From Nitrospirales bacterium (GTDB lineage Bacteria > Nitrospirota > Nitrospiria > Nitrospirales > UBA8639), in assembly GCA_029261255.1 (NCBI GenBank), contig JAJDBQ010000104.1:1-64000 (forward strand): a stretch of 64,000 nt of DNA, written 5' to 3'. The position numbers were made by a program, and so were the translations under genes. The notes under the pieces are model-generated. The model was given only the letters and a program-made list of their open reading frames with translations. It had not been told where the DNA came from and made no database searches. Below, piece after piece: positions 4,941 through 51,631 of the stretch (the stretch's first letter is position 1; the number at the start of each line of letters is the position of its first letter).

Positions 4941-5936
4941 TTGAATAGTCAATCGGCCCGATCCTCTCAAAGCCTCAAGCAGGCGGTAGTCCTTGGCTGC
5001 CTTCTTGTTGGAATTCTTTCTGTTCTGTTTCTCCCGATGCCGTCACATACTTTTTTGTGGAAAGCCGTGAACAATTTCGGTCACGTGCCATTGTTCGGGC
5101 TCGTGGCCATAGTGTTGTTGTGGATTTCTAGGACACTTACGAAGCCATCACGCTGGTCGAGTATTCGACATTATGGTCTTTCCCTATTGGGAGTGTTAGC
5201 TCTTGCGTTCCTGACTGAGGGACTACAATCGTTCGACATCGCGCGGCAGACGAGCCTCTCTGATGTCTTTCACGACATTGTAGGAGCAATCTGTGGACTG
5301 GCACTATTCTTCACCTATGATGCACATCTTCCTGAGGCATGGGTGAAATGGCGAAAACGCCCTCGAAAATTCATCCTTCACGTGTGTGTGATCCTGGTTC
5401 TTGGGATTACGCTTCTGCCTGTGATTGAATGGACTTATGTGTATTGGGATCGAGCCAATCGCTTTCCGTCTTTTGTACAATTTTCTTCAGAGTGGGAAAT
5501 GAAATTTGTTAAGGCGAGAGATAGTAAACTTCAGATTGTGGTACCACCGGTGGGATGGGAGAAATCAACTGATGACCTTGTGGGACAGGTGAAATTTCAT
5601 CTGAAGAAATACCCAGGGATTCTCTTAGATGAACCCTATCCTGATTGGCGAGGATATACGTATTTGCAGTTTGAAATTTTTTCCGAGTTATCACACCCAC
5701 AACAAATGGCTATTCGAATTGATGATGCGGAGTACAACCGTACCTATACGGATGGATTCAATCGGCGCATCATGGTGTTGCCTGGCATCAACCATATCCA
5801 AATAACAATAGAAGATATTCAACGGTCACCAGTAAGCCGAGAAATGGATATGAGTTCGATCAGGAAAGTTCTACTGTTTACCGTCAGCCCACCAGAAGAA
5901 TTTACCCTCTACTTCGATAATCTCCGCCTAGAATAA
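4941..5936 (+). CDS. VanZ-like membrane protein with C-terminal beta-sandwich-like domain
   Basis: Protein of 331 residues. The N-terminal part holds four predicted membrane segments and the VanZ-family signature: a TEGLQ motif followed by R-x-x-SLSDVFHDIVGAICG. After a fifth hydrophobic segment (residues about 145-165) comes a roughly 165-residue extracytoplasmic domain with DWRGYTYLQFEI, an IRIDD motif and a closing YFDNLRLE. This end resembles carbohydrate-binding-like beta-sandwich modules seen fused to VanZ domains. VanZ itself is linked to glycopeptide resistance in Gram-positives; most relatives have no known role. Translation starts at a TTG one base after the lhr stop, suggesting coupling. 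Function here is unknown; a cell-envelope role is an inference. Confidence 0.75.
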   Translation: MNSQSARSSQSLKQAVVLGCLLVGILSVLFLPMPSHTFLWKAVNNFGHVPLFGLVAIVLLWISRTLTKPSRWSSIRHYGLSLLGVLALAFLTEGLQSFDIARQTSLSDVFHDIVGAICGLALFFTYDAHLPEAWVKWRKRPRKFILHVCVILVLGITLLPVIEWTYVYWDRANRFPSFVQFSSEWEMKFVKARDSKLQIVVPPVGWEKSTDDLVGQVKFHLKKYPGILLDEPYPDWRGYTYLQFEIFSELSHPQQMAIRIDDAEYNRTYTDGFNRRIMVLPGINHIQITIEDIQRSPVSREMDMSSIRKVLLFTVSPPEEFTLYFDNLRLE

Positions 5937-5940
5937 GTGA

Positions 5941-6150
5941 TCTGTTGCAGAAATCCGCCAGCGGTGTTCCCTGCCTTCGCGCTCGCCGCTGAAGCCAGCT
6001 TTGGCGCGCAAGCAGCCGTAGAGGCTTCGCGCAGGCAGGTCGCCAAATTCCCGTGCTCATGTACAGCATGTATGCTCCGTGCATCCAAATGCCTGCGGTC
6101 TTGCTGGACGAACTTTTGAGCAAGCCGGAAGCCTTTGAGATTCAACCCTT
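5941..6150 (+). repeat. Intergenic composite repeat, copy A
   Basis: Degenerate copy of the family described at 16939-17122. It starts CTGTTGCAGAAATCCGCCAG, holds a long internal module (GCTTCGCGCAGGCAGGTCG), the GTGCTCATGTACAG / TGTATGCTCCGTGC dyad and GGTCTTGCTGGACGAACTT, and ends with an ATTCAACC-type tail. It lies directly behind the VanZ-like gene. Confidence 0.75.
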
Positions 6151-6695
6151 CTGCCAGCGCTTTAGCTCATGCGGATTGTTCTTCAATCCCTCATCCATCA
6201 ATAGGTCCAGCCGGAATGGGCAAGGATGCCTTAAGAAGCTTTCTACAAGAATGATTCCTTCATTCTGGGCTCTACACGGATGAGTGCTGTCGGAACGTCA
6301 TGAGTGAGTGCCGACCGAAAACCATAGGGTTGATCTTGTTCGGGCATTTGAATTCCTTGAAATTCTATTCTTAATTTTTGAAATAAAAATTTGCTGAATC
6401 TTGTGATATTTTCCGGAAGGTTATTGATTGTTATAGGTAAATAGGCATGGCGCCAGTCTTGCTCTGTGAAAGACAAGAGAAAGCAAATATTGGCTTTCCC
6501 AGTATGCCATCTACGAATGGTGGGCTATCCTCGTCTTGTGTTCATGAAAGGTTGATCATCCTTGTCATTCATGTAAAAGCATGATGAGTGGGATGGAAGG
6601 GATGAGAACAATGTAGAGAAGTCAGACCAAGTAGTGTTAATTGAAATCTAGAATATGCCTATGTGTTGATCCGTTTATTTTATGGAGGTGCGGCC
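6151..6695. other. Intergenic region without a clear gene
   Basis: About 545 bases between the repeat and the secreted propeller gene. No convincing gene. A reverse-strand open frame (6243-6476) has no good start or ribosome site and no recognised motif; it could be a decayed fragment. The 3' end holds the GGAGG ribosome-binding site for the next gene. Confidence 0.4.
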
Positions 6696-9638
6696 ATGAG
6701 AAGAACCACGAACGATCAAGGGATCGAACCATCACGACAGCTCTCTACTTGCTGGGTCGCAGGAAAGTCTCTTGCGGCTTTTTTTGTCCTGTTTGCCCTT
6801 GCCTGCCTCTCTCCCGTGTTTCTCACCTTGGCCCATGCAGCTCCAAGCGAGACCACTCGGGTGAGTGTGTCGAGTAGTGGGGAGGAGGGAAATGGATCGA
6901 GTGATCCATTGTATTCATTTTCCAGGGCTTCAATCAGCGCTGATGGGCGTTATGTGTTCTTTCGCTCCTATGCGACGAATTTCGTGCCTGGGGATTCCAA
7001 TGACTTAGACGATTTATTTCTCTATGACCGGCAAACCAGTACCACCTCGCGGATAACCGACTCAAGCATTGCGCAGCGCCTATTGTTTCGTGATTCCCAA
7101 GCAATCACTCCTGATGGGCGTTATGTCGCCTATAGTGCAGGGCAAAATCAATTTGGTTATCGTACCGCATCAATTTTTGTCTATGATCGGCAAACTGGAA
7201 GCACGGAGAAAGTGAATATTGAAGGAGTGGGTAGTTTGTTCCGTAGCCCAACCCTGAGTGCCGACGGGCGATATGTGGCCTTTGCATCCGTGTTCATTGG
7301 TGACCCGTCTTATCCAATTGACAGTGCCTCGAGCGTCTACATTCATGATCGGCAGACCGGAGGGACAACACTGATCAGTGGGAGTGGGTTTGGTTTTAGC
7401 GAATCACCCTCGATGAGTGCTAATGGTCGGTATGTGGTGTTTCGCTCTAATGTACCAAACTTAGTGGTAGCCGATACTAATAGCACTTACGATGTCTTTG
7501 TCTATGACCAGCAGGCTGGAGATACGTCACGAGTGAGTCTGTCGAGTAGTGGCGAACAAGGGGCTCTTCCAAGTTTCGGCGCCTCCATCAGTGCTGATGG
7601 ACGCTATGTCGCATTCTCCTCCGCGGCAGACAATTTGGTGGTGGGAGATACGAATGATGCTACGGATGTGTTTGTTCACGATCGACAGAGCAGAAGTACG
7701 ACACGCGTGAGCGTGTCGAGTAGTGGGGAAGAAGGCAGTGGCACGAATCCTTCGATCAGCGCTGATGGGCGGTTTGTGATGTTTGAATCTGGCGCCACCA
7801 ATTTGGTGACAGGGGATATCAACGATTCAGTGGATGTCTTTGTCCATGACCGACAAGCCGGAACGACGTCGCGCGTGAGTATCTCAAGCAGTGGGGAAGA
7901 AGGGAATGACCGGAGCGAGGATTCTGCAATGAGTGCCAATGGGCGCTACGTGGTGTTTGATTCCGAGGCGACCAATTTAGTGCCAGGGGATACCAATGGT
8001 TTCGATGACGTGTTTGTCCATGAACGCGGCGGCCCGGTTAGTGCAACTCAACCATTAACGGTCAGACTCTTTGGCGTAGGCACTGGCACGGTGACGAGCG
8101 GTACAGCAGGGATCGATTGTGGTGTAGATTGTTCAGAAGACTATTTGCCTGGCAGCTTGATCACGCTTACTGCCACTCCCGATGCAGACTCTGTGTTTAT
8201 GGGGTGGAGTCGAGGCACGGATTGGAGTGGTACGAGCTGCAGTGGCACCGACACGTGTACGGTGGTCATGACTCAAGCTCATACGGTGATGGCGGAATTT
8301 GCACCTCTTGGAGGGGGGCGGCTTGTGTCTATGGAGTATGTCCGATTGGTGGCCAACTCGGAAGTGAATGGCAATCCTTGGACGTCCATCGCAGAATTGA
8401 CTCTGTTAGATCAATTCGGAGCGCCACTGGATAAAAGCAACTGGACCTTGGTGTCGGCGGATAGTGAAGAGTTGGTTGGCGAAAATGGGGTAGCTGAAAA
8501 TGCCTTTGACGGCAATCCGTCGACTATCTGGCATACCACATGGCCGGGTGTCCCCGGCCACCCGCATGAGATCGTCATCCGTCTCGGGACGAGATCCCAA
8601 GTCGTGAGTGGCTTCCGCTATCTGCCCCGGCAAGATGGTGGTGAGAATGGTCGAATTGCCGAGTATCAGTTCTACGGGAGTCGGTCTACTTTTTCCTGGG
8701 GTGCACCATTAGCTGTCGGCACGTTTGCGAATACGGCTGAAGAGCAGCAGGTGGCCTTTGGGGAAGATCTACGCTACATCCGCTTGGTGGCACTGTCGGA
8801 AGTCAATGGTAATCCTTGGACATCCATGGCGGAACTGACTGTACTGGATGAGAATGGAACACCATTAGATAAAACCAATTGGACCCTACAGTCGGTGGAC
8901 AGCGAAGAGTTGATTGGTGAGAACGCCGCGGCGATCAATGCCTTTGATGGGAATCCATCCACGTTTTGGCATACTCAATGGTCGGGTGGCTCTCCGTCAC
9001 ACCCACATGAAATCATCATTGATCTCGGAGAACAGCAAGCGGTGAGCGGTTTCGGGTATCTACCACGGCAAGACGGTGGGACCAATGGTCAAATTGCGAT
9101 GTTTCGATTTTACGGGAGCACTGACGGCGTCAATTGGGGTTTCCAACTGGCCGAGGGAACATTTGCTGATACGGACCAGGATCAACAGGTTGCGTTTGAC
9201 GGCACGCGCTATCTCTCGTTAGTGGCCAACTCGGAAGTGAATGGGAATCCGTGGACAAGTGTGGCTGAACTAACGGTGCTCGATCGTTTTGGAATGCCTC
9301 TCGATAAGGGCGATTGGAAGGTGGTGTCTGTGTTTAGTCAAGAATTAGTGGGTGAAAATGGCGCGGCACGCAATGCCTTTGATGGCAATCCGACAACGTT
9401 CTGGCATACACGGTGGTCTAGTGGCAATGATTCACATCCGCATAGCCTCAGGATTGACCTTGGGAGAGCCCAAGAGATTAGTGGCATTCGCTACCTCCCG
9501 CGGCAGGATGGTGGGACCAATGGTCGGATTGCAGAATATTCGTTCTCTGGCAGTCCAAGATTGAGAGGCGGTTTCAAGCCGTTGGCGTCAGGGGTGTTTG
9601 CTGATACGGATCAAGAACAGGAAGTGCTTTTTCCATGA
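6696..9638 (+). CDS. Secreted TolB-like beta-propeller with InlB-type repeat and three discoidin (F5/8C) domains
   Basis: Large exported protein, 980 residues from the ATG preceded by GGAGG; an in-frame TTG 33 nt earlier lacks such a site. The signal peptide ends near LTLAHA. Next come seven WD40/TolB-like repeats of about 60 residues, each with a S-I-S-A-D-G-R-Y-V core and an F-V-H-D-R-Q-like strand, which would close a seven-bladed propeller. A GTGTVTSG...CGVDC segment typical of divergent InlB B-repeat domains follows. Last are three discoidin-like modules of about 145 residues, each with NSEVNGNPWTS, NAFDGNPST-W-H-T and YLPRQDGG. Such modules bind glycans or surfaces. The gene overlaps the oxidase gene by 4 nt, so the proteins are probably made together. 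The ligand is unknown. Confidence 0.85.
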   Translation: MRRTTNDQGIEPSRQLSTCWVAGKSLAAFFVLFALACLSPVFLTLAHAAPSETTRVSVSSSGEEGNGSSDPLYSFSRASISADGRYVFFRSYATNFVPGDSNDLDDLFLYDRQTSTTSRITDSSIAQRLLFRDSQAITPDGRYVAYSAGQNQFGYRTASIFVYDRQTGSTEKVNIEGVGSLFRSPTLSADGRYVAFASVFIGDPSYPIDSASSVYIHDRQTGGTTLISGSGFGFSESPSMSANGRYVVFRSNVPNLVVADTNSTYDVFVYDQQAGDTSRVSLSSSGEQGALPSFGASISADGRYVAFSSAADNLVVGDTNDATDVFVHDRQSRSTTRVSVSSSGEEGSGTNPSISADGRFVMFESGATNLVTGDINDSVDVFVHDRQAGTTSRVSISSSGEEGNDRSEDSAMSANGRYVVFDSEATNLVPGDTNGFDDVFVHERGGPVSATQPLTVRLFGVGTGTVTSGTAGIDCGVDCSEDYLPGSLITLTATPDADSVFMGWSRGTDWSGTSCSGTDTCTVVMTQAHTVMAEFAPLGGGRLVSMEYVRLVANSEVNGNPWTSIAELTLLDQFGAPLDKSNWTLVSADSEELVGENGVAENAFDGNPSTIWHTTWPGVPGHPHEIVIRLGTRSQVVSGFRYLPRQDGGENGRIAEYQFYGSRSTFSWGAPLAVGTFANTAEEQQVAFGEDLRYIRLVALSEVNGNPWTSMAELTVLDENGTPLDKTNWTLQSVDSEELIGENAAAINAFDGNPSTFWHTQWSGGSPSHPHEIIIDLGEQQAVSGFGYLPRQDGGTNGQIAMFRFYGSTDGVNWGFQLAEGTFADTDQDQQVAFDGTRYLSLVANSEVNGNPWTSVAELTVLDRFGMPLDKGDWKVVSVFSQELVGENGAARNAFDGNPTTFWHTRWSSGNDSHPHSLRIDLGRAQEISGIRYLPRQDGGTNGRIAEYSFSGSPRLRGGFKPLASGVFADTDQEQEVLFP
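8335..9630 (+). repeat. Three tandem discoidin-module repeats
   Basis: Three in-frame units of about 430-435 nt, starting near 8335, 8773 and 9208. Each encodes one discoidin-like module. They are clearly similar at DNA level but less uniform than the four copies in the next gene. Confidence 0.8.
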
Positions 9639-12600
9639 TGGCGGGAAGCTTCGGCCAGCCTTTTAGGCTCATGGTCGGTATCCGTCATCAGAAAGGTCTG
9701 TTAATTCTGGCTGTTTGGCTTGCGGTCTGGTTAGGCCTGCTAGCCAATGGAGCAGCCCAGGCTCATGATCATGCACTAGATGATGCGACTGGAGCCGCGC
9801 AAGCGCGACTACTGAACGAACCACTCTTTGCGATGGTTGAAACTGAAGCGGTAGCCATGAGTGCATTGGAAGCGATGGGGCAGTGGGGCCCGGTGACGAC
9901 TTGGCCGTTTGTTTTTGCCTCGGCGGCTAATTTACCCGATGGGCGAATTGCCGCGTGGGGAGGGAATCGACCAACGACAGCGAGTGGTGGTTTTGACACC
10001 TATACCGGGGTCTGGGATCCGGTGACGGGACAAATCACGGAGCAGCTCTACGATCAACATGCGATGTTCTGCGGGATTGCGACGCTGCGGGAGAATGGGC
10101 AAATCTTCGTAGCCGGTGGCGACGGGGAGAGTCGAGCCCTCACGAGTCTTTTTGATTATGGTACGAACAGTTGGCAGCGCATTGACGATGCCCATGTTGG
10201 CCGCTGGTATAACGGGGCGTTGCACTTACCGACGGGCCAAGTCTTTATGGCGCTTGGCAGCACTGGCAGTCGCTATCCTGAATTGTGGACAGAGGGTGTC
10301 GGTTGGCGGTGGCTCACGGGTATCGACTTGCAGGCGCCGATTCTCGACTACGTAGCAGAGTATGGCCGACCGGATTGGTTCCCTCTGTTTACGGTCGCAC
10401 CCAGCGGGGACATTCTGCATGTCGGGCCGACACCGAAAATGCATTACATTAATCCCCAGGGAAACGGTTCGATTCAGGAAGCTGGGGCGGGGATCATTGG
10501 TTGGGATGCGAATAACCAGGCAGGGACCATGATGATGTACGCCAAGGGCAAGGTCCTGACATTTGGGGGTGAGCCCAATCAGCGAAAGTCGTCCATTGTC
10601 GATCTGAATGCCGTGCCTCCTCAGGTCACGTCCACAACTGGCATGTTACAACCCCGTTCCTTTGCTAACGCTGTCATGATGCCCAATGGTGAGGCCTTTG
10701 CTGTTGGTGGGAATACATCGGGCAAGCGATTTAGCGATGACGGGACTATTCTCACTCCAGAAATTTGGAATCCACTGACGCAACAGTGGCGTGCGGTGGC
10801 AGATCATTCAGTGCCCCGCAACTACCATGCTGTTGCCTTGCTCATGCCTGATGGCCGCGTGTTTTCTGGCGGTGGCGGTCTCTGTGGTTGCAGCGCCGAC
10901 CATGCTGACCATCAAGTCTATTCGCCCGGATATCTGTTTAATGCTGATGGGTCGTTGGCTGCACGTCCCACGATCACAGACGCCCCAGATGTGTCTACCT
11001 TCGGCATGACACTCGACATTGCGGCCGTTCCCGATATTCAGCGGTTTACCATGATCAAAATGTCAGGCACCACTCATGCCTACAATACAGACGTGCGTTT
11101 TCTGAATGTTCCCTTCAGCGGCAATAATGGGAATTATCAGTTGACCTTGGAGAGCAATCCCAACGTGCTGACCCCTGGATACTGGATGCTCTTTGCGCTC
11201 AATGCACAGGGCACACCTTCGGTCGCCAAAGTGATCCAGATTCAGAGCCACACCGTTTCTATCACAAATCCTGGCAGTCAAATCACTGAAGTCAATGAGA
11301 GCGTCTCGCTACCCTTGATCGTCGACAATCCTCATGGAAAGAGCTTGACCTTTAATGCGACAGGGTTGCCGCCCGGCTTGACGATTGACAGTACCACTGG
11401 CGTGATCAATGGTATTGCCACAGCGGAGGGGACTTATGAAACAAGTGCGACAGTGAGTAATGGTTCAATTGTGACAGATGTTCTTTTTACCTGGACGGTG
11501 TTTCCCATAGGTGGAAGCTCAAATGCCTATCGGTATGTCAGGTTGGTCGCCGACTCAGAAGTGAACGGGAATCCCTGGACGACCATGGCCGAATTGACGG
11601 TGCTGGATGGAAATGGGACCCCCCTTAACCAAAGCGGCTGGACGCTACACTCCGTGGATAGTGAAGAACTCGTGGGTGAAAATGGGGACGCGGTCAATGC
11701 CTTTGATGGCAATCCGTCGACGTTTTGGCATACGCAATGGTCCGGTGGGAATCCTCCGCCCCCGCATGAAATTGTGATTGATCTCGGGACTGTGCAGACC
11801 GTGAGTGGCTTTAGGTATTTGCCACGACAAGATGGCGGGGAGAATGGGCGTATTGCGAACTACCGTTTTTACGGGAGTAATGACGGCGTAACCTGGGGGG
11901 CACCCTTAGCCACAGGGACCTTTCCTAATACGGCTGAGGAGCAAGAAGTGTTGTTGGCTGGCACCCGCTATGTCCGGTTGGTGGCCGACTCGGAAGTGAA
12001 CGGCAACTCCTGGACGACCATGGCCGAATTGACGGTGCTGGACGGGAATGGGACCCCCCTTAACCAAAGCGGCTGGACGCTACACTCCGTGGATAGTGAA
12101 GAACTCGTGGGTGAAAATGGGGACGCGGTCAATGCCTTTGATGGGAATGCTGCGACGTTCTGGCATACCCAGTGGTCCGGTGGGAATCCTCCGCCCCCGC
12201 ATGAAATTGTGATTGATCTCGGGACTGTGCAGACCGTGAGTGGCTTTAGGTATTTGCCACGACAAGATGGTGGGGAGAATGGTCGGATTGCAGACTACCG
12301 GTTCTACGGGAGCAATGATGGGGTGACGTGGGGCACGCCGTTGGCCACGGGCACGTTTGCCAATACTCCAGATGAACAGCAGGTAGCGTTTGGTAGCACC
12401 CGCTATGTGCGGTTTGTGGCGGATTCGGAAGTCAACGGGAATCCTTGGACGACCGTGGCCGAACTGGTGGTGTTGGATTTCACTGGCACCCCACTGAATA
12501 AAAACGATTGGATATTGCAGTCCGTGGATAGTGAAGAAGTGATAGATGAAAATGCTGCAGCGAGGAATGCTTTTGATGGCAACCCGTCGACTATTTGGCA

Positions 12601-13264
12601 CACCCAGTGGGCGACTGCGGCTCCACCACATCCACATGAGATCGTGATTGGTCTCGGGGGCGCATACGGGGTGAGCGGGTTCCGCTATTTGCCGCGGCAA
12701 GATGGCGTAAGCAATGGGCGCGTTGCGGATTACAGGTTCTACGGGAGCAATGATGGGGTGACGTGGGGCACGCCGTTGGCCACGGGTACGTTTGCCAATA
12801 CTCCAGATGAACAGCAGGTGATCTTTGGGGGCACGCGCTACGTGCGGTTGATGGCCAACTCCGAAGTCAATGGCAATCCGTGGACGACGATGGCTGAATT
12901 GACGGTGCTGGATTCCACAGGCACACCGCTTGATAAGAGCGGCTGGACCTTGCGGGCCGTGGATAGTGAGGAATTTACAGGTGAGAATGGCGCCGCGGTG
13001 AATGCCTTTGATGGTAATCCCGACACGATCTGGCACACCCAGTGGTCTGGTGGGGATGTTCCATACCCGCATGAGATCATCATTGATCTAGGAGTCGTGG
13101 AATCTTTGGGTGGCTTTCGCTATCTGCCGCGCCAAGATGGCGGGATCAATGGGCGGATTGGGGAGTATCAATTTTATGGGAGTTCGGATGGGGTGACGTG
13201 GGGAGTGCCACGGGCGTCAGGGGCCTTTGCGGATACGGACCAAGAACAGGAAGTGCTGTTCTGA
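9635..13264 (+). CDS. Secreted radical-copper oxidase (galactose/glyoxal oxidase-like) with four discoidin domains
   Basis: Exported protein of 1209 residues with a signal peptide ending near NGAAQA (about residue 43). Residues about 85-430 form a kelch-type propeller and about 445-560 the C-terminal domain of the galactose oxidase family. All copper-radical residues appear present: Cys146 (MFCG) and Tyr192 (RWYNG) for the thioether-linked radical cofactor, Tyr397-His398 (PRNYHAV) and His481 (THAYNTDVR). The family oxidises primary alcohols or aldehydes and releases hydrogen peroxide; RWY resembles glyoxal oxidases. A putative-Ig (He_PIG) domain follows at about 565-625, then four discoidin modules. 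The start overlaps the upstream stop (ATGA). The substrate is unknown, though glycan binding by the tail suggests a sugar or polysaccharide. Confidence 0.88.
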   Translation: MMAGSFGQPFRLMVGIRHQKGLLILAVWLAVWLGLLANGAAQAHDHALDDATGAAQARLLNEPLFAMVETEAVAMSALEAMGQWGPVTTWPFVFASAANLPDGRIAAWGGNRPTTASGGFDTYTGVWDPVTGQITEQLYDQHAMFCGIATLRENGQIFVAGGDGESRALTSLFDYGTNSWQRIDDAHVGRWYNGALHLPTGQVFMALGSTGSRYPELWTEGVGWRWLTGIDLQAPILDYVAEYGRPDWFPLFTVAPSGDILHVGPTPKMHYINPQGNGSIQEAGAGIIGWDANNQAGTMMMYAKGKVLTFGGEPNQRKSSIVDLNAVPPQVTSTTGMLQPRSFANAVMMPNGEAFAVGGNTSGKRFSDDGTILTPEIWNPLTQQWRAVADHSVPRNYHAVALLMPDGRVFSGGGGLCGCSADHADHQVYSPGYLFNADGSLAARPTITDAPDVSTFGMTLDIAAVPDIQRFTMIKMSGTTHAYNTDVRFLNVPFSGNNGNYQLTLESNPNVLTPGYWMLFALNAQGTPSVAKVIQIQSHTVSITNPGSQITEVNESVSLPLIVDNPHGKSLTFNATGLPPGLTIDSTTGVINGIATAEGTYETSATVSNGSIVTDVLFTWTVFPIGGSSNAYRYVRLVADSEVNGNPWTTMAELTVLDGNGTPLNQSGWTLHSVDSEELVGENGDAVNAFDGNPSTFWHTQWSGGNPPPPHEIVIDLGTVQTVSGFRYLPRQDGGENGRIANYRFYGSNDGVTWGAPLATGTFPNTAEEQEVLLAGTRYVRLVADSEVNGNSWTTMAELTVLDGNGTPLNQSGWTLHSVDSEELVGENGDAVNAFDGNAATFWHTQWSGGNPPPPHEIVIDLGTVQTVSGFRYLPRQDGGENGRIADYRFYGSNDGVTWGTPLATGTFANTPDEQQVAFGSTRYVRFVADSEVNGNPWTTVAELVVLDFTGTPLNKNDWILQSVDSEEVIDENAAARNAFDGNPSTIWHTQWATAAPPHPHEIVIGLGGAYGVSGFRYLPRQDGVSNGRVADYRFYGSNDGVTWGTPLATGTFANTPDEQQVIFGGTRYVRLMANSEVNGNPWTTMAELTVLDSTGTPLDKSGWTLRAVDSEEFTGENGAAVNAFDGNPDTIWHTQWSGGDVPYPHEIIIDLGVVESLGGFRYLPRQDGGINGRIGEYQFYGSSDGVTWGVPRASGAFADTDQEQEVLF
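11530..13261 (+). repeat. Four tandem near-identical discoidin-module repeats
   Basis: Four in-frame units of about 435 nt begin near 11530, 11966, 12402 and 12837. Units 1 and 2 share long identical stretches covering the middle of the module, while units 2 and 3 are nearly identical at their 3' ends. This patchwork shows recent unequal recombination or gene conversion. Confidence 0.85.
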
Positions 13265-13357
13265 GAAAACTACATGATCGATTAAAATGAGAATGGACGC
13301 GGCCTGGTCAAAGGAAGTAATGGCATTTGATCTATTTCCTGAGTTTTGCCCCGACGC

Positions 13358-13397
13358 TCACACCACCCCTCTCCTTGGAAGGGTGAGGGAGTCGGGA
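13358..13397. repeat. REP-like G/C-rich palindromic sequence
   Basis: Sequence CACCCCTCTCCTTGG followed by AAGGGTGAGGGAGTCGG, a partial dyad resembling the element inside lhr. It lies between the oxidase gene and a small zinc-ribbon gene and might form a hairpin in the transcript. Confidence 0.5.
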
Positions 13398-13508
13398 CGC
13401 GACATAGTTATCAGCTAGTCAGAAAAGAACAATGAGCTTGGAATGGTGATCACTTTTTATTTTTCATCGTTTCTTGACCGTATTCTTTGGCTTGGATAAG
13501 ATCGATCT

Positions 13509-13781
13509 ATGCCGATGCCACCATTTCCAGGCGGTTCTCGTCCCACTCCAGGGATGCGACCGCGCCGCCCACCTGTTTCTCAAGAGGATCCGAAGCAATT
13601 CGAATCTCTTCGAGCCTCATTACTTTTTTGCCCAAAATGCCAGACTGCGACGCCGGCTCGTGAACGGCTTCTTTTAGTGCTGCCAACCGGAAATCTTTAC
13701 GAGTATGTGTGCGCACAGTGCGGGACGTCTACTGGTTCTAAGACTGAGCAAGCACAGGGTGGTGGACTTCTTGCGCCATAA
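13509..13781 (+). CDS. Small zinc-ribbon-like protein
   Basis: Protein of 90 residues. A Pro/Arg-rich N-terminus (MPMPPFPGGSRPTPG) precedes a compact domain with FCPKC at about residues 41-45 and CAQC at about 69-72; two CxxC knuckles 25 residues apart are typical of a zinc ribbon. Between them lies RERLLLVLPTGNLYEYVC. I recognise this as a conserved hypothetical type but know no function. It sits alone between the oxidase operon and a repeat copy. Zinc binding is inferred from the cysteine spacing; nucleic-acid or protein binding would both fit. Confidence 0.7.
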   Translation: MPMPPFPGGSRPTPGMRPRRPPVSQEDPKQFESLRASLLFCPKCQTATPARERLLLVLPTGNLYEYVCAQCGTSTGSKTEQAQGGGLLAP

Positions 13782-13784
13782 GGG

Positions 13785-13930
13785 GTCTGTTGAAAAAAGC
13801 CGCCAGCGGCGTTCTCACTAAATTCCGGTGCTCACGTACGAAGTGTACGCTCCGCGCCTGAATTTGGCTGCGGCCTTGCTGGACGAACTTTTTTGAACCG
13901 ACCCGAAGAATCCGATGTTCAGGGTTGCCA
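13785..13930 (+). repeat. Intergenic composite repeat, copy B
   Basis: Short form of the family: starts GTCTGTTGAAAAAAGCCGCC, then CAGCGGCGTTCTC, the GTGCTCACGTAC / GTGTACGCTCCGCGC dyad, CGGCCTTGCTGGACGAACTT and a GATGTTCAGGGT tail. It begins four bases after the zinc-ribbon gene stop. Confidence 0.85.
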
Positions 13931-15900: not shown

Positions 15901-16013
15901 TGTTGAAAAAAGGGGGCAGCTGCGTTCTCGCTTTCTTGCCGCGCTCACTGAGTGAGAGACTCGCTCCGCGAGTCAAAAAGGCTGTGGCCTTGCTTGACGA
16001 ACTTTTTTGAACC
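15901..16013 (+). repeat. Intergenic composite repeat, copy C
   Basis: Diverged short copy starting TGTTGAAAAAAGGGGGCAG, with GCTCACTGAGTGAGAGACTC replacing the usual central dyad, then GGCCTTGCTTGACGAACTT and TTTTGAACC. It separates the divergently transcribed MutS-like and prmA genes. Confidence 0.75.
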
Positions 16014-16095: not shown

Positions 16096-16947
16096 ATGGT
16101 GATGTCTTCGACGGTTTTGCAAGTACAAATTCCTGCATGTGTGGATGGGGCCGAACTCTCTGGACTCTTGTCTTGTTCAGATTTTTTAGGTGTATGGGAA
16201 GAAGATGGAGCGTTGATGATTTATTGGAAGGGAAGCGAGGAGTCTATTCTTCAAAAAATACGCGAGGCTTTGGCGCAACTTCATGTCGACATGCGGGTTT
16301 CCGCGAACGACGTTCAATGTGTGATCTCTCAAGATTGGAATGCTCAATGGGCTGCGTCGGTTGAACCCATTCGGATTGGTCAGCGTGTCGGGATTCGTCC
16401 AAGTTGGAAAACGATGGAATTGCCTGAGAATGGAATTGAAATTGTTCTTGATCCTAAACAAGCGTTCGGGACGGGGCATCATGCCACGACTTATCTTCTC
16501 ATTGAATGGTTAGAAGAGCTATCTGAGTTGGAAGGTTCTCGAGTCTTAGATGTCGGGACGGGGAGTGCGATTCTGAGTATGGCGGCGGTACGCTTGGGAG
16601 CATTGTCGGCGTTGGGAATAGATAATGATCCCGTGGCGATTGATTGTGCCAAGGACTATGCCGTGGTGAATGGGTTCACGAATGAACTCGATCTTCGAAC
16701 GTGTTTGACCAGTGACTTGGTGGATCAATCATTTGATATTATTGTCGCCAATATAGATCGAAAGACGATTCTTGAAATCACCCCGGAATTTTCAAGGTTT
16801 CGTTCTTCAACGACGCAGTTGTTTCTTTCAGGACTTTTGGCAGAAGATGCGACTGATATCGTGGCAGCGTTCACGCATCATGGGTGGGTTCGCCAAGCCT
16901 TGCGGCAACGCGAAGGATGGATTGCCCTTCATTTTAGTGTCTGTTGA
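16096..16947 (+). CDS. prmA: Ribosomal protein L11 methyltransferase-like
   Basis: Protein of 283 residues, normal PrmA length. PrmA trimethylates ribosomal protein L11 using S-adenosylmethionine. The PrmA signature DPKQAFGTGHHATT occurs near residue 119, followed by the SAM-binding motif VLDVGTGSAILS and the acidic GIDNDPVA. The family catalytic/substrate motif NILA appears here as ANID (FDIIVANIDRKT), a modest departure. The N-terminal 90 residues fit the L11-recognition domain only weakly. The last codons and the TGA stop are supplied by the start of repeat copy D (GTCTGTTGA). A less likely alternative is another protein methyltransferase of the same fold. Confidence 0.85.
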   Translation: MVMSSTVLQVQIPACVDGAELSGLLSCSDFLGVWEEDGALMIYWKGSEESILQKIREALAQLHVDMRVSANDVQCVISQDWNAQWAASVEPIRIGQRVGIRPSWKTMELPENGIEIVLDPKQAFGTGHHATTYLLIEWLEELSELEGSRVLDVGTGSAILSMAAVRLGALSALGIDNDPVAIDCAKDYAVVNGFTNELDLRTCLTSDLVDQSFDIIVANIDRKTILEITPEFSRFRSSTTQLFLSGLLAEDATDIVAAFTHHGWVRQALRQREGWIALHFSVC

Positions 16948-17122
16948 AAAATGCCGTTAGCGGCGCTCTGATCAACATCGAGTGCTTACGTACTGCATGT
17001 ACGTTCCGCGCCCAAACTTGGCGGCCTTGCTGGACGGACATTGTTTAACAGACATGAAGTTGATGCTATTCAACACATTCCTGGGTCTGTTTGCCTCTTG
17101 ATCTCCTTATTATTCAACACCC
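16939..17122 (+). repeat. Intergenic composite repeat, copy D (reference copy)
   Basis: About 184 bp that fills the space between two convergent genes exactly. It starts GTCTGTTGAAAAATGCCG, contains the GTGCTTACGTACTGCATG / TACGTTCCGCGC dyad and GGCCTTGCTGGACGGACA, then a second module with CACATTCCTGGGTCTGTTTG and ends TTATTATTCAACACC. The ends (TGTTGAA and TTCAACA) are inverted, as in a MITE. No coding capacity. Confidence 0.85.
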
Positions 17123-19429: not shown

Positions 19430-19489
19430 TCTTTTGGCAATGGATGCCTTGTGAACTTCTGATCGTTGAGTCGGTGGGTTTGATTGTAG

Positions 19490-19692
19490 GTCTGTTGAAA
19501 AAAGCCGCCAGCTTTCGCCAAGGATCCGGCTGACAGGCTAGCGGTGCCATGCCTGCCGAAGCGGCTTCGCATAGGCAAGTCGTCATTTTTCTGTGCTCAC
19601 GTACTGGAAGTACGCTCCGCGCACAAAAAGGGCTGCGGCCTTGCTGGACGTATTATTTTGAACAGCCCCAAAGCCTATGATATTCAAGGTGT
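19490..19692 (+). repeat. Intergenic composite repeat, copy E (long form)
   Basis: Starts GTCTGTTGAAAAAAGCCGCC. It has an inserted module (GCTGACAGGCTAGCGGTGCC, then GCCTGCCGAAGCGGCTTCGC) not found in the short copies but shared with copies F and G, then GTGCTCACGTACTGG / AAGTACGCTCCGCGC, CGGCCTTGCTGGACG and a TATGATATTCAAGGTGTT tail. Confidence 0.85.
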
Positions 19693-22610: not shown

Positions 22611-22855
22611 GGTGTTGAATAATAAAGATATCAAGGGGCATACAGACCCAGGAATGTGGAATCGCAGCGCTTTTGGGTCAGTTCAAAAAAGTCCGTCCAA
22701 CGAAGTTGCAGGCAAGTTTGTGTGCGGAGCGTAGTCTCAGTAGTGAGCACGGCCAAGAGGCGACTTGCCTCTGCGAAGCGCCTTCGGCAGGCATGGCACC
22801 GCTAGCCTGTCAGTCGGAGCCTTGGCGAAGGCTGGCGGATTTTTTCAACAGACCC
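22611..22855 (-). repeat. Intergenic composite repeat, copy F (inverted long form)
   Basis: Same family in the reverse orientation and the most complete copy. Read on the plus strand it starts GGTGTTGAATAATAAAGATA, includes CAGACCCAGGAATGTGG, then GTCCAACGAAGTTGCAGGC, the long-form module (GGCATGGCACCGCTAGCCTG) and ends GATTTTTTCAACAGACCC. It carries both terminal modules present in copy D. Confidence 0.85.
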
Positions 22856-22924
22856 GCTATGGTTTTAGTCGAGCGAGTGATCGTGAGCGTCTATTTGACT
22901 GTTCGTGTCGTCGAGACTGGCGTT

Positions 22925-40577: not shown

Positions 40578-41951
40578 TTGCCTTTAATATTTAATAGACG
40601 TATAGAGCCCATTGTGACTCATTTCCTTCTTGCTGCAAAAAGAGCACACCTAAAGATTCCGTGCGGCCTTTTACTCCTATTGATTGTTGGTGGTGAAATC
40701 CTTCTGCCACTAAAAGGGTGGGCGCAATCCTTTAGCGATACGGGTACATTCAGCTTTACCGGAAGCAGTAACCCTGTTCTTATTGCTCAGAGATATCGTG
40801 AATTTCTTCCAGGGGATGGTGTAAGAGTTGGTCCGGTACAGCTCCATCCCTTTTTAGGAGTAGCAGAAGTGTGGACGGACAATGTCTTTCGGACCAATAG
40901 GAACGAGGAAAGTGACTTTCTGACGACCATAGCCCCAGGAATTCAAGCCTCTCTACCATTTGGCGGAAAGCACTCTTTTTTACTAGATTATCGCGCGGCT
41001 CAGTTCCTCTACTCAAAATTTTCTGGGAACAATTCGTTCACTCAAAATGGGGTAGGGCACCTCACCTTGGATTATCCTGGAGGGTTAAGGGTAGATGTGG
41101 ACGCCAATGTTGTCGGGGGTTTTGATGCTAGAGGATCGGAAGTCGATAGTCAGCAACCGGATATAACGAAGTGGAATTCGAATACGTTTCGATCCACAGC
41201 CCAATTGGTTGGGACCAACCTTGGGATTCGCGGAGGGGTGCGCTACACCCAGTTAAGTTTTCGAAACAATGGACAAGATAGGCCACGGGACCGGAACAAT
41301 GCGGCAGCTAATTTGACCATATTTATCCCAACCAGTGTGACAACCTCTGCTCTTCTTGGAGGGTTTATATCAGATCAGAATTATGACAGGAATAACCAGT
41401 TGGATAGTTTCACATACGGGGTGTTTACGGGGTTCAGAATAGCGCCTAGCCGACAGTTATCTGGAGAATTGAATGTTGGGTATAATATTCTAAACTTTGA
41501 CCGGGCTCCTGAAGGTGAAACTTTAAAAATCCAGGAGCTCCTCAGAATGGGGTTAAGCATTGGAGGGAAGCAGCAGAAGGCACTTTTTATTAGTGGAAAT
41601 TTGAGGTGGAGGCCTACGTCTCGGTTATCTTTCGTTTTTCGGCCTTTTCGATTAATCCAGCAGGCAGCGGTTTTTAATACCTCGACGTTTACGCAAACCG
41701 GTGTCGGGTTGAGAGTGAGCCAGACTTTTAACACTCGGCTCTTTATCAATGGATCGGTTCTCTACACAAATAGTGATTTTGAGGGAGGGAGAAGTGATAA
41801 CCGATATCGTTTGAGGACAGAACTAGAGTACCGTACCGTGAAATGGCTAGGTTTTAAATTTGCCTATATTTTCGAGAGGAGGTTTGCAAATCAGACAATT
41901 TTTCGATTCAATGCTAATACCGTTATGCTTTCGATTCAAGCATTTCTTTGA
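40578..41951 (+). CDS. Outer-membrane beta-barrel protein of exopolysaccharide locus
   Basis: Protein of 457 residues. A signal peptide (LLLLLIVGGEILLPLKGWAQ) precedes a soluble stretch with VRVGPVQLHPFLGVAEVWTD and then about 16 amphipathic beta strands with alternating Tyr/Phe pattern (LSFVFRPFRLIQQAAVF, LRTELEYRTVKWLGF), ending in an aromatic-terminal strand (MLSIQAFL) suited to BAM recognition. It resembles the outer membrane beta-barrel family found in Vps/PEP-CTERM-type exopolysaccharide loci. A role in polysaccharide export or attachment is inferred from position. TTG at 40578 follows AAGAG; an in-frame GTG at 40614 is an alternative start. Confidence 0.8.
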   Translation: MPLIFNRRIEPIVTHFLLAAKRAHLKIPCGLLLLLIVGGEILLPLKGWAQSFSDTGTFSFTGSSNPVLIAQRYREFLPGDGVRVGPVQLHPFLGVAEVWTDNVFRTNRNEESDFLTTIAPGIQASLPFGGKHSFLLDYRAAQFLYSKFSGNNSFTQNGVGHLTLDYPGGLRVDVDANVVGGFDARGSEVDSQQPDITKWNSNTFRSTAQLVGTNLGIRGGVRYTQLSFRNNGQDRPRDRNNAAANLTIFIPTSVTTSALLGGFISDQNYDRNNQLDSFTYGVFTGFRIAPSRQLSGELNVGYNILNFDRAPEGETLKIQELLRMGLSIGGKQQKALFISGNLRWRPTSRLSFVFRPFRLIQQAAVFNTSTFTQTGVGLRVSQTFNTRLFINGSVLYTNSDFEGGRSDNRYRLRTELEYRTVKWLGFKFAYIFERRFANQTIFRFNANTVMLSIQAFL

Positions 41952-42526
41952 TACCTTCGATTGAAAAAACATTAAATTTGAAATCCTGCCCCCATCGCCT
42001 ATCCCTCCCTAAGAAAGCTCCGAATCTTGGGTTTGCCCATCGCCACAAACTCGATAGCCTCCTCTCTTCTTTGTGGAAATTGACGACTGAATGAGGACTG
42101 AAAAGCAATTGGTTCAATGATGTGCCAAAAGGATACATTATCTATACTTATACTGTTCCTAATCTGTGCTGCTGACTCAATACGGTGAACACGAGATGAC
42201 AAAATTAGCCGGGTAGGGAAACAGTCTCAAGAGACAAGACCAGGGCGGATAAAAACGTGACTTGTGATTAATATGAGTATTTCTAATTGGCGATAATGAT
42301 GGGTTGGATAGATTTTTGCCATAATAGGAAAGTGCGGGTATTGTAATTATTTAGGATTCATTGCCAATAGTTCTGTGTTGCAAATAATGTGTCGACTAAC
42401 TTTTGCTCCTCTCTGCCTCAAAAACCATTAAAGAAAATAGGGTAAGTTTCTCTTTGTCTGCGCCTCTGAATATTAAAGAGGGAATGTAATTTAATTGAAA
42501 GTATAGAAGAGAGAGATCAAGATAAC
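41952..42526. other. Gene-free stretch upstream of glycosyltransferase
   Basis: About 575 bases without a supported gene. A reverse frame at about 41999-42202 encodes RREEAIEFVAMGKPKIRSF and could be a remnant, but no family is recognised. The 3' part turns AT-rich and ends with AGAGAGATCAAGATAAC before the next TTG start. No riboswitch consensus recognised. Confidence 0.4.
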
Positions 42527-43459
42527 TTGTCAAAATTAGTCACAATTGGAATTCCCACCTATAATAGAGCAAAGAGTTTTTTGCCTCAGGCCATTGAGAG
42601 TGCGTTGGCTCAAACTTACGACACTCTTGAAATAATTGTTTCCGATAATTGTTCTTCTGATCATACCGAAGCACTTGTCCAGGAATACGGTGACCCACGA
42701 ATCAAATATGTAAAGCAGAATGTACCTCTGAAGCCTCTACAAAATTCCAACTTTTGCCTCAAGGAAGCAAAAGGGGAGTATTTTTTACAACTTCATGACG
42801 ATGATGTCATTGACCATGATTTTATTGAAAGTTGCATGAAAGCAGAACAAGGCTCACCGAATATAGGGGTGATTAGAACAGGTGTTCGAGTAATTGATGC
42901 CAAAGGGCTTGTTCTCCAAACGCAAAAAAACGTCGTTGAGGGCCCCTCGCTAAGTGATTTTTTTTTGGCATGGTTTGAAAATAAGACCTCCTGGTATCTC
43001 TGCAATAGTCTATTTCAGACCAAGGGAATCCGAGACGATGGAGGCTTTCACTCGAAGCGGCATCATGTTAGCGACGGGGTGGCCATTGCTCAGATGGCCC
43101 ACAAGTATGGGCGAAAAGATATTGAAGATGTCAAAGCGAGTTTTAGGCAACATTCTGAAGAAATAACCTTTTCTGTCACACTCAAGGATTGGTGCCTTGA
43201 TTATCATGCCTTGTTAGAGCAAATGTACATGGCGACGGATAATGACGAGGACGTGAAGAGAAAAGGAGCGGTATTTTTTTCTCAGATGAACTACCATCGT
43301 GCGAATTCTATTCACTCAAGGACGAAACGGTTGTTAACTTTTTTGATGATCTACCGATTGTTTTACTATAGCTATCCACCAGAGAGGTATATTTTCCCTT
43401 CGGTATTTTGGAAAATCCTTCGTGGCATAAAAAAATGTGTATCACCTAGAAACTACTAG
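42527..43459 (+). CDS. Glycosyltransferase family 2
   Basis: Inverting GT-A enzyme of 310 residues that transfers a sugar from a nucleotide-sugar to a lipid-linked or growing glycan. It opens LVTIGIPTYNRAKSFLPQAI, has EIIVSDNCSSDHTEAL for nucleotide binding and LQLHDDDVIDHDF, the metal-binding Asp motif, near residue 88. The region after residue 120 (VRTGVRVIDAKG, WFENKTSWYLC) is the variable acceptor domain. No transmembrane helix, so cytoplasmic. TTG start is supported by a purine-rich AGAGAG. First GT in the AT-rich part of the island. Confidence 0.85.
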   Translation: MSKLVTIGIPTYNRAKSFLPQAIESALAQTYDTLEIIVSDNCSSDHTEALVQEYGDPRIKYVKQNVPLKPLQNSNFCLKEAKGEYFLQLHDDDVIDHDFIESCMKAEQGSPNIGVIRTGVRVIDAKGLVLQTQKNVVEGPSLSDFFLAWFENKTSWYLCNSLFQTKGIRDDGGFHSKRHHVSDGVAIAQMAHKYGRKDIEDVKASFRQHSEEITFSVTLKDWCLDYHALLEQMYMATDNDEDVKRKGAVFFSQMNYHRANSIHSRTKRLLTFLMIYRLFYYSYPPERYIFPSVFWKILRGIKKCVSPRNY

Positions 43460-43632
43460 AATGTCACATGTGTGATCAACTTATACTGACAATTTCATCA
43501 TGGACTTTTTAACGCTTTCTCTCGAATAGTGAGGATTTATTATTTGGCCACTGTCTTATTCGATGCGGACTGATCAATCTTTCAAAGAATACATGTTAGC
43601 TACAAATCAAATAATTTTGTGATAATCCCATA

Positions 43633-44589
43633 ATGACGTTTATTCAAGATTTTTGGCGAAATATTAAGTTTTTAAAAGCACTCCGTTGGAAAAAGGATTT
43701 TGTACGATCTCTCCTTGAATCGGAAAATTTGGAGTTTCTTCAATTTGCTCCTCCGGGCCATTTTTATTCTCCTCTCCCTGATTTGCCAGACGTGCATTCG
43801 AATGCCAACCGTATTTTTAATGAAAATCCCCAAGATCTTCTGGCTATCAATCTTAATGTGGAATCTCAGATTCAATTGGTGGAAAGCTTCTCTCGCATCT
43901 ATAAAGAAGTTCCATTTCAGGATCACAAATCAGCAAGTGTTCGCTATTTTCTCGATAACAAATTTTTCAGCTATGGTGATGGAATAATCTTGTACTCATT
44001 TTTACGGTACTTTCAACCAAAACGCGTTGTGGAGGTTGGTTCTGGTTTTTCCTCAGCCGCCATGTTGGATATTAATGATTTGTTTTTGGACAAGCGTCTT
44101 GAATTTACCTTTATTGAACCTTTTCCTGATCGATTGTTTGGGTTGCTCTCTTCTGATGACAGGCAAAAATCCAGGATTGAAGTCAAGCGGGTTCAAGAAG
44201 TGGAAGATAGGGTTTTCACATCTCTTGAAGCGAATGACATTTTATTTGTGGATTCGAGTCATGTGGCAAAGATCGATAGCGATGTCGTGCATATTATTTT
44301 TCAAATCTTGCCTCGCCTGCAAAAGGGTGTCATTGTGCATTTTCACGATATCCCTTGGCCCTTTGAGTATCCAAAACAGTGGGTAGACGAAGGTCGGGCA
44401 TGGAATGAAGCCTATTTTTTACGAGCATTCTTACAGGACAATGTGAATTTTGAAATAGTGTATTTTAATTCCTTCATGGCAAATCGCCATGCGGACCTTT
44501 TGAGTAAAGCAATGCCAAGGGTATTAAACACACCGACTTCACCCGTGACTCTGGGCAATTCAAGTCTATGGTTGAGGAAAGTGAACTAA
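43633..44589 (+). CDS. SAM-dependent methyltransferase (Methyltransf_24-like)
   Basis: Protein of 318 residues. The Rossmann SAM-binding motif reads KRVVEVGSGFSSAAMLD near residue 134, followed by LEFTFIEPFPD as acidic beta-2 loop, then NDILFVDSSHVAKIDSDVVH and VIVHFHDIPWPFEYP, which match the Methyltransf_24 group. In polysaccharide loci such enzymes often methylate sugar hydroxyl groups. Substrate unknown. No signal peptide. It is followed by the first copy of the hairpin element. Confidence 0.75.
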   Translation: MTFIQDFWRNIKFLKALRWKKDFVRSLLESENLEFLQFAPPGHFYSPLPDLPDVHSNANRIFNENPQDLLAINLNVESQIQLVESFSRIYKEVPFQDHKSASVRYFLDNKFFSYGDGIILYSFLRYFQPKRVVEVGSGFSSAAMLDINDLFLDKRLEFTFIEPFPDRLFGLLSSDDRQKSRIEVKRVQEVEDRVFTSLEANDILFVDSSHVAKIDSDVVHIIFQILPRLQKGVIVHFHDIPWPFEYPKQWVDEGRAWNEAYFLRAFLQDNVNFEIVYFNSFMANRHADLLSKAMPRVLNTPTSPVTLGNSSLWLRKVN

Positions 44590-44608
44590 CGATGATATTT
44601 CATTGTCC

Positions 44609-44717
44609 TTTAAATCACTTGAGGGTATATTCCCCGCTGCTTGCGGCGTAAAAAACTACTCGCGTGAGTGAGTCCATGCATAATACCCCGTCCGCTTGCG
44701 GCGGGGATCATTTATTC
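44609..44717. mobile_element. REP/MITE-like hairpin element, copy 1
   Basis: 109-bp element with three hairpins: CCGCTGCTTGCGG; ACTCGCGTGAGTGAGT; and CCCCGTCCGCTTGCGGCGGGG. A second copy at 52005-52113 is identical except for one base in the middle stem. It has no coding capacity and resembles REP elements mobilised by RAYT-type Y1 transposases. Confidence 0.8.
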
Positions 44718-44805
44718 TTTAGTTTAGTGTAGATCTCATTTGGCATTCAATGGCTACCGTTGGTACGAATGCTGGAATTTTTGAAGGTGCCAATTTTCAT
44801 CTTCC

Positions 44806-46023
44806 ATGATTTTTCCTTCTCTTTCCACAATTAGTAAATGGGGCGGCGGTTGTATCTTTTTATTCCTTTTCTATTGGGCTGTCCGATGGTGGGCAAATGG
44901 GTTCCATTTATTTTTAATTGCTCTCGTTTTTACTTTCGGAATTTTGGTGGTCTTTCTAAGACATAATGGGTTAAGAGTCCTCGCTCTTATCTGCCTTTCG
45001 TTTTCGTTGCTGTTATTCATCATAGAGTATGGATTCTTGATCAATAAGAGATTTTCTCCTCAGTTAGCTACAGCACAAAAAACCTTTTTTTGTGGCAAAC
45101 AAAAAAAAATAAGTAAAGGAGATCGGGAACTAGGATATCGGGGTGTCCCAGGTCCGGTTGCCTGTACGTTTAAGTTGCAGAGAGAAGGGAATGATGTACA
45201 CGAGGGCACATATTCGCTCGACGAGCATGGATTTCGGGTCACGCCAGGAACAAGCCAGAATGGCGATTCTATCGTTTTTTTTGGAGGGTCCAACATGCTT
45301 GGAGAGTTGGTTAACGATGACGAGACCCTTCCCTATTATGTTTCTCAACGGTTAGGCCATCGCTACAATGTCGTGAATCTTGGGTGGTCTGGTTGGGGAC
45401 CGCATCAAATGCTTCGTTTGCTTGAAGTCGAAATGTTGAAGGATATAGTCAAGGGTCCGCTTCGAGGTGCGGTCTTCAAGACAGCTATATGGCATACGCA
45501 GCGAGTGTTAGGCTACTCATCTTGGGATCAGACAGGTCCAAGATATCAGAGGGTAAGCACAGGGCACATTGAGTATGGCGGTCCATTTAAATCAGAATCC
45601 CGTCTGGAATTTGAAAAATATTTGAAGCAGAGTTCTTTGTTTGTCTGGTTGTACCAACGGACACAGAGGATTTCATCTCGAGACATTGATTTGTATATCG
45701 ACATCATTGTTAAATCATCGTCTCTTCTTCAGGAACAATATGGGGTTCCTTTGACTGTCCTTTTTTTTCCTTCCCCAGATCAACCTGAGCATTACGGTGG
45801 ATTCACTTCAGAAAAAGTTATTCAGCGCTTGAGACAAGAGGGATTAAAAGTTCTAAAGGCTTCTGATGTCATTAATTATAAGGCAGCAGACATGATCATA
45901 GAAGGCGATGGGCATCCTTCCCCTTTGGCCTATTACCGCGAAGCACAACTGGTTTCTACAGTATTTGTTCAGTCTGATGAGAAGGTCAAAGAGGGATGTC
46001 GCAATAACAACAATGATTGCTGA
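44806..46023 (+). CDS. Membrane protein with SGNH hydrolase-like domain
   Basis: Protein of 405 residues. Three transmembrane helices at about residues 12-90 precede a periplasmic SGNH-type domain. Block I reads SIVFFGGSNMLGELVNDDET, with Ser in GGSN in place of GDS, and block V is EGDGHPSPLAYYREAQ, giving the Asp and His of the triad. Such proteins remove or add acyl groups on cell-surface glycans. The substitution GGS for GDS is unusual and leaves activity uncertain. It follows directly after the hairpin element. Confidence 0.7.
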   Translation: MIFPSLSTISKWGGGCIFLFLFYWAVRWWANGFHLFLIALVFTFGILVVFLRHNGLRVLALICLSFSLLLFIIEYGFLINKRFSPQLATAQKTFFCGKQKKISKGDRELGYRGVPGPVACTFKLQREGNDVHEGTYSLDEHGFRVTPGTSQNGDSIVFFGGSNMLGELVNDDETLPYYVSQRLGHRYNVVNLGWSGWGPHQMLRLLEVEMLKDIVKGPLRGAVFKTAIWHTQRVLGYSSWDQTGPRYQRVSTGHIEYGGPFKSESRLEFEKYLKQSSLFVWLYQRTQRISSRDIDLYIDIIVKSSSLLQEQYGVPLTVLFFPSPDQPEHYGGFTSEKVIQRLRQEGLKVLKASDVINYKAADMIIEGDGHPSPLAYYREAQLVSTVFVQSDEKVKEGCRNNNNDC

Positions 46024-46285
46024 AGACTATACTTAGTGAGTATCAACCTGGTCTTTGTGTCCAATCCTGCTGCATAGATGATTGATTCTTTGCCTGCAAA
46101 AGCGGGATCCTCATTCAGTTTCGTCAGGAGATACTCAAGATATTGTGAATCGTGTTATTGACGTCGTCTTTCTCCGTCAGCACGTTTCTTGTTCAGCAAG
46201 GAGGGATTGTGTTTTTGCGTATGCTATTCAAAGATGAGAATGAATAAACCTTGGGTGTTACTTCAATGAGGGAGAATTTGACCGT

Positions 46286-48696: not shown

Positions 48697-48798
48697 TGAG
48701 ATGGAAAGCTTAGAATATCAATAGATACGTTTGATTTGGGGTTTCATTGAATACATGTTGCACCTTTGAAGTAGCTGATGCTAAACAAGATTCACGAA

Positions 48799-49812: not shown

Positions 49813-49881
49813 GCACCAAGACGTTCACGGTTTAATCCTGCTCGGGAATACCTCTAGTATTTCCGATAGTTTGGTTGTTGC

Positions 49882-51441: not shown

Positions 51442-51631
51442 ACAATGGTGGGCGGGTCTTGAAGATTTCCTGATACACGAATTCAGAGATTTATGATATA
51501 AGTGTTGTCGTTACCATATGACTAGTCACAAGAGATAAAAGTACCATTGCTCGTTAGTAAACACCAGATTATACAAATGGCATTGTTCCGCCACTTGGCA
51601 GAAAAACCTACGGGGTGACCCATGCCAGGAA

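Follow-up and report, generated by a model that had tools for sequence, protein, structure and literature searches.

An oxidase gene and an adjoining propeller gene

Two adjoining plus-strand genes lie within a 7.6 kb variable segment (5936–13508), delimited by BLAST synteny and boundary alignment, of the window, i.e. the whole 64,000-nucleotide stretch of Nitrospirales DNA analyzed here. The downstream gene (9635–13264) is an uninterrupted ORF encoding a copper radical oxidase of 1209 aa, in which a likely signal peptide region, judged by eye (aa 1–42, 9635–9760; a hydrophobic stretch ending in GAAQA), is followed by an AA5 catalytic domain comprising a kelch-type propeller and a galactose-oxidase early set (aa 80–538, 9872–11248; Pfam, structure matches, and model), a He_PIG Ig-like domain (aa 542–622, 11258–11500; Pfam), and four CBM32/discoidin modules (aa 632–776, 777–921, 922–1066, and 1067–1209, 11528–13261; Pfam and alignments). 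The Pfam matches include four F5_F8_type_C copies (E = 2.6e-91) and GO-like_E_set (aa 444–536, E = 6.1e-18), together with He_PIG and kelch motifs. A minus-strand ORF at 12080–13072 extends across the CBM32 repeats; we treat it as mechanical.

Sequence searches of solved structures matched aa 81–536 to the bacterial galactose oxidase 9G43 (whole-protein E = 1.9e-120) and to Fusarium galactose oxidase 1GOF (E = 8.1e-98), matches that far exceed chance. An AlphaFold model built with 56 aligned sequences (mean pLDDT 92.2, pTM 0.93) superposes on 9G43 with a TM score of 0.95 (rmsd 2.0) and on 1GOF with a TM score of 0.93 (Foldseek). The features that define the AA5 superfamily, i.e. the first-shell set (Cys-Tyr, Tyr, His, His), the seven-bladed propeller, and the C-terminal early set, are all present. 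The first-pass annotation of this DNA, which described a complete radical-copper oxidase joined to four discoidin modules, is thus borne out by the Pfam matches and the 9G43 and 1GOF alignments, although the He_PIG domain was absent from its description. It had proposed a search against structure and family models, in which all five of its copper/radical residues align and the AA5 fold is found; the prospect it raised, that a structural prediction might place these residues far apart, is contradicted by the superposition on 9G43.

The upstream gene encodes 991 aa as the longest ORF (6663–9638), with a signal-like N-terminus, a seven-repeat propeller, an InlB-type repeat, and three CBM32 modules (ORF, Pfam, and repeats); its true start is likely the ATG at 6696, behind GGAGG at 6684–6688. 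Assignment of the propeller as PD40/TolB-like (6843–8030) rests mainly on seven [DN]GR[YF]V repeats, a PD40 match (6.6e-12), and TolB-like Foldseek matches, the latter from a poor single-sequence model (pLDDT 63). The three CBM32 modules (aa 557–701, 703–847, and 848–991) occupy 8331–9635. A possible ribosome-binding site, AGGAAG (9619–9624), precedes an ATGA start/stop overlap with the oxidase gene (9635–9638; whole element 9619–9638), an arrangement that makes translational coupling of the two genes likely.

The CBM32 modules of the window align with the CBM32 of the M. viridifaciens sialidase and with galactose oxidase, and the FWH..W/IWH..W and LPRQDG motifs are retained in all seven. These motifs match the H, W, and R residues given for the Gal pocket of CpCBM32 (PMC12926856), and with F5/8 type C matches above cut-off they place the modules in the CBM32 family. 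The seven modules are nearest one another, with 58–73% identity between oxidase and partner and up to 90% within the oxidase, and they group together on a weakly supported tree, which suggests local duplication and a common ligand. Further F5/8 type C (CBM32-type) proteins occur in the same genome: two long ones are close together on one contig (L042, 1690–4923 and 7622–10768), and a third is cut by a contig end (L043, 13211–15859).

The first-pass annotation had gone on to suggest a two-component surface system. Its local basis stands, i.e. the ATGA overlap with likely co-translation, the 58–73% identity between the CBM32s of the two proteins, and the location of both genes in one variable segment, but the pairing was seen at no other locus examined: a propeller homologue was found near no oxidase relative in these loci. 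Homologues of the propeller are widespread, being found in 40 of the 396 genomes of the phylum searched, and also on plasmids, and are unlinked to an oxidase there; the common CBM32s could simply reflect local duplication. A single dedicated machine made of the two proteins is therefore plausible on the strength of this one locus, and is compatible with the function that we favor below, but we regard it as rather unlikely.

The copper site and the tryptophan switch

The thioether partner Cys146 (10070–10072), the radical tyrosine of the predicted cross-link, Tyr192 (10208–10210), and the copper ligands Tyr397-His398 (10823–10828) and His481 (11075–11077) align one-to-one with Cys228, Tyr272, Tyr495-His496, and His581 of galactose oxidase, as the earlier assignment of copper/radical residues would have it. 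The five first-shell residues are invariant across all aligned relatives of the oxidase, the motif GGGGLCG(x)C is common to the window protein and galactose oxidase, and, as far as alignment can tell, the metal site is complete.

AA5_2 galactose 6-oxidases carry an aromatic residue at the Trp290 position (Trp, with Phe/Tyr in some); in the window protein, the loop bearing this residue is four residues shorter and retains no aromatic at that position. Trp290 is also missing in some alcohol oxidases, with Phe or Tyr in its place. Other changes relative to galactose oxidase are Tyr329 to Gly, His334 to Phe, Phe194 to Ala, and a gap at Gln406. Phe366 aligns with Phe464, and Arg245 aligns, in a locally uncertain part of the alignment, with the galactose-binding Arg330; a sugar substrate is therefore possible, which counts against the function that we favor. 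Trp191 (GRWYN; 10205–10207) immediately precedes the cross-link tyrosine and by alignment takes the position of the AA5_1-type second-shell Trp, W509 of the fungal aldehyde oxidase FgrAldOx (PMC13094651). The 2026 structure of this AA5_1 enzyme, which prefers aldehydes, shows W509 directly preceding the cross-link Tyr510 and flipped with respect to Trp290, and the position of the second-shell Trp was proposed to help tell aldehyde from galactose oxidases, the fungal enzymes compared being 16–19% identical (PMC13094651). In sequence, the pair Trp191-Tyr192 corresponds to this AA5_1 arrangement.

The window protein and its relatives served as queries to collect 108 catalytic domains, which are thus not a random AA5 sample (one fungal AA5_2 and no fungal AA5_1 sequence); among these domains, the two Trp arrangements are mutually exclusive (82 versus 25, with a single Tyr/Tyr outlier). 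Gly or Ala at position 271 accompanies Trp290 in 81 domains and Gly271 accompanies Phe290 in one, whereas 25 domains have Trp271 without an aromatic residue at 290; the Fusarium row is the W290G mutant entry 2EID, counted as wild type (Trp). The exception, with Tyr at both positions (RYYP and GGSYP), is an AA5 protein (L196) of the cyanobacterial genome G853. On a tree built without the trait columns, and with the Tyr/Tyr row unlabeled, the Trp switch amounts to one change. On this unrooted tree, Trp271 first and Trp290 later would be the simplest direction if the RWYP group is the outgroup.

This maximum-likelihood tree, to which extra Verrucomicrobiota rows were added relative to a first tree, included one fungal galactose oxidase and no fungal AA5_1 sequence. 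The window protein and seven Verrucomicrobiota proteins form one clade (100/99), which a protein from a cyanobacterial MAG joins with weaker support (96/70). The neighboring clade is that of the W290 galactose oxidases (100/97), and in both trees the window protein falls outside it, on the neighboring branch. RWYP proteins of Nitrospirota and cyanobacteria lie further out, and a 100/97 branch separates this bacterial RWYP group from the window protein, whose terminal branch length is 0.72 with trait columns removed. The Pfam model Glyoxal_oxid_N scores 21.1 bits against a cut-off of 37.5, below the level for AA5_1 sequence membership, and the GlxA equivalog NF052501 scores 131.1 bits against a cut-off of 800. 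The bacterial branch that contains the window protein lies between the two known enzyme groups and has, to date, gone undescribed; we found no biochemical result for this window/Verrucomicrobiota branch in the open-access literature. The sole fungal galactose oxidase in the tree (GOase_Fgr) nests among Actinomycetota, with Micromonosporaceae (100/98); such a placement would point to bacteria as the source of fungal AA5_2, but one fungal sequence is too few for a conclusion.

Because the Trp290 loop is deleted and an AA5_1-type Trp191 is found instead, galactose oxidase activity is not to be assumed. The window oxidase might nonetheless be a bacterial galactose 6-oxidase of the usual kind from which this loop was lost by chance: a bacterial galactose oxidase is its best solved-structure match, Arg245 and Phe366 are retained, and its CBM32 modules are of the galactose-binding type. 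We consider this improbable given that the loss of Trp290 comes with the four further changes at Tyr329, His334, Phe194, and Gln406, that the protein lies outside the W290 clade, and that the Trp/Arg pair has been described as the key indicator of galactose 6-oxidase activity (PMC11267884). The window oxidase is probably not a galactose oxidase. The changes in several second-shell and substrate residues, the long terminal branch, and the presence of seven CBM32 modules in two adjoining proteins would also suit a catalytically silent AA5-fold adhesin that attaches through its CBM32s, but retention of all five first-shell residues on a divergent branch, a Trp switch common to relatives, and a full-length ORF without a stop make such a loss of activity more improbable still. 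The first-shell set, the signal-like N-terminus, and the glycan-binding-type modules with galactose-pocket motifs make an active, H2O2-producing enzyme outside the cytoplasm plausible.

Bacterial relatives, peroxidase fusions, and genomic setting

Searching genome contigs with an alignment of four sequences identified 219 bacterial loci encoding relatives of the oxidase, whereas a single-query scan gave no matches. The best 80 of the 219 loci belong to Actinomycetota, Pseudomonadota, Bacteroidota, and a small number of further phyla. CBM32 modules are commonly fused in tandem, with up to four N-terminal copies in Actinomycetota and C-terminal copies in Burkholderiales; no other locus examined showed four tandem copies at the C-terminus. 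The non-fungal setting pointed out in the first-pass annotation is not new, given 219 bacterial loci, many with tandem CBM32 modules, and the existence of bacterial structures (9G43 and 9G8H). GlxA and FbfB show that radical copper oxidases of bacteria can have a developmental role (PMC3543389).

A genome from another family of the same order (G137) encodes a relative of 772 aa, and the closest relatives of the window oxidase are 1566–2951 aa long. In the Pfam-scanned fusion proteins, Ig/PKD-type domains come after the oxidase, then lectin-type modules in some, a propeller match, and finally a diheme CCP_MauG and cytochrome c region. Exactly two CxxCH motifs, ∼125–134 residues apart, occur in 19 proteins (near-identical species included), i.e. 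L062, 11 proteins from Burkholderiales and other Pseudomonadota (L064, L065, L067, L068, L071, L082, L083, L085, L095, L103, and L104), and L206–L212. Pfam was run on eight of the 19 (L062, L064, L065, L071, L082, L207, L211, and L212), and the peroxidase part of the rest is deduced from motif spacing. The window protein is 44% identical to L211 over aa 16–622, with the oxidase and He_PIG domains in common and the heme part missing; it contains no CxxCH, and no peroxidase gene was identified adjoining its gene. In several relatives from Verrucomicrobiota and Burkholderiales, too, the oxidase domain is followed by He_PIG. The partner propeller was considered as a piece split off from such a fusion, but no similarity was found between it and the first set of fusion proteins (L206–L212 lay outside this comparison).

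From their domain order, the oxidase–diheme-peroxidase fusions possibly combine a producer of H2O2 with a consumer of it, or with an activator, in one chain. We found no paper on a galactose oxidase–peroxidase fusion or on the Verrucomicrobiota members in the open-access literature. We tentatively propose, at a little short of even confidence, that the window and Verrucomicrobiota proteins constitute an undescribed AA5 branch with a galactose-oxidase scaffold and an AA5_1-type shielding Trp, a living intermediate near the move of Trp between positions 271 and 290, that they oxidize aldehydes or non-galactose alcohols, and that the fused forms feed, or are activated by, the built-in diheme peroxidase.

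In the genome of a sister species (G005), most flanking proteins are 86–95% identical and collinear, but the region from 5936 to ∼13508 is missing, leaving ∼167 bp from the VanZ gene to where conserved sequence resumes. The chromosome is otherwise collinear, and the gene pair constitutes a variable segment within it. The VanZ-like gene beside it (4941–5936) is 67% identical to that of the sister species, versus 86–95% for most neighbors. Of the 48 other genomes of the family searched, some of them incomplete, none yielded the oxidase (E-values are per genome, and such absence counts depend on MAG completeness). The comparison with the sister species fits either gain or loss; absence from the rest of the family favors gain. 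Boundary alignment revealed no target-site duplication or terminal (inverted) repeat at the segment ends, and mobile-element insertion was rejected on this basis. A dispersed intergenic repeat of ∼130 bp (5933–6117, 13775–13905, 15901–16013, 16939–17053, 19489–19669, and 22675–22862) has copies near both segment ends and recurs in further genomes of both the genus and the family. An exopolysaccharide-type cluster encoding a beta-barrel porin (BBP2_2), an MBOAT acyltransferase, two glycosyltransferases, and an asparagine synthase (40578–57193) lies ∼27 kb downstream of the gene pair, with nothing linking the cluster to the two genes. The MAG that contains the window (4.36 Mb, 88% complete) is 4.2% contaminated and the oxidase is absent from the 48 other family genomes, but a contig foreign to this Nitrospirales genome is largely refuted by the collinear flanks and the empty site in the sister species, and we give contamination next to no weight.

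Proposed function and comparison with known systems

The AA5 reaction is a two-electron oxidation with O2. The reading that we favor, and hold to be moderately probable, is that the window protein is a secreted AA5-fold copper radical oxidase, from a branch neighboring the galactose-oxidase clade, that its four CBM32s would hold on a galactose-containing glycan. The oxidase would be exported by way of its signal-like N-terminus and take up copper, and the Cys146-Tyr192 thioether cross-link would form. Trp191, in place of the Trp290 loop, would shield the Tyr-Cys radical as in AA5_1 aldehyde oxidases, and given this arrangement a small aldehyde or a non-galactose alcohol is the expected substrate. 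Oxidation of a primary alcohol or aldehyde would release H2O2 either at the surface of the cell or within the matrix, and the matrix of the organism itself could be what is naturally targeted.

The branch is ∼40% identical to galactose oxidase yet has the Trp arrangement of the aldehyde oxidases, and so offers a much closer natural comparison, in which the effect of moving the Trp on radical stability and substrate choice is directly testable. The window oxidase resembles the AA5_2 galactose oxidases (1GOF, and 9G43 from Pseudarthrobacter siccitolerans) in its fold, its five first-shell residues, GGGGLCG(x)C, and CBM32 attachment. In contrast to these enzymes, it has Trp191 and no Trp290 loop, several substrate residues are changed, and its CBM32s are C-terminal, four in tandem, and behind He_PIG. 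With the fungal AA5_1 aldehyde/glyoxal oxidases (FgrAldOx, 9N3U) it shares the Trp before the cross-link Tyr and the missing Trp290, but overall it is nearer galactose oxidase (TM score of 0.95 to 9G43 versus 0.84 to 9N3U), and FgrAldOx has a WSC domain where the window oxidase has CBM32. Streptomyces GlxA is likewise a bacterial radical copper oxidase with a propeller and an early-set domain; however, it matches the window oxidase weakly (16% identity, TM score of 0.82), and its second-shell Trp288 comes from another position.

The nearest relatives, with an RWY-type site, are the giant oxidase-CCP fusions of Verrucomicrobiota/Prosthecobacter (L062 and L206–L212), in which He_PIG lies behind the oxidase domain as in the window protein (L062, L207, and L211). 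These fusions run on into PKD, propeller, diheme CCP_MauG, and cytochrome c regions with two CxxCH motifs, whereas the window protein has no heme motifs. The oxidase–diheme-peroxidase fusions would be a bacterial counterpart of fungal oxidase–peroxidase pairs: the tandem peroxidase–alcohol oxidase pair of Colletotrichum (PMC9770985) also brings together a copper radical oxidase and a heme peroxidase, but as separate fungal genes and with a class II peroxidase (PMC9770985).
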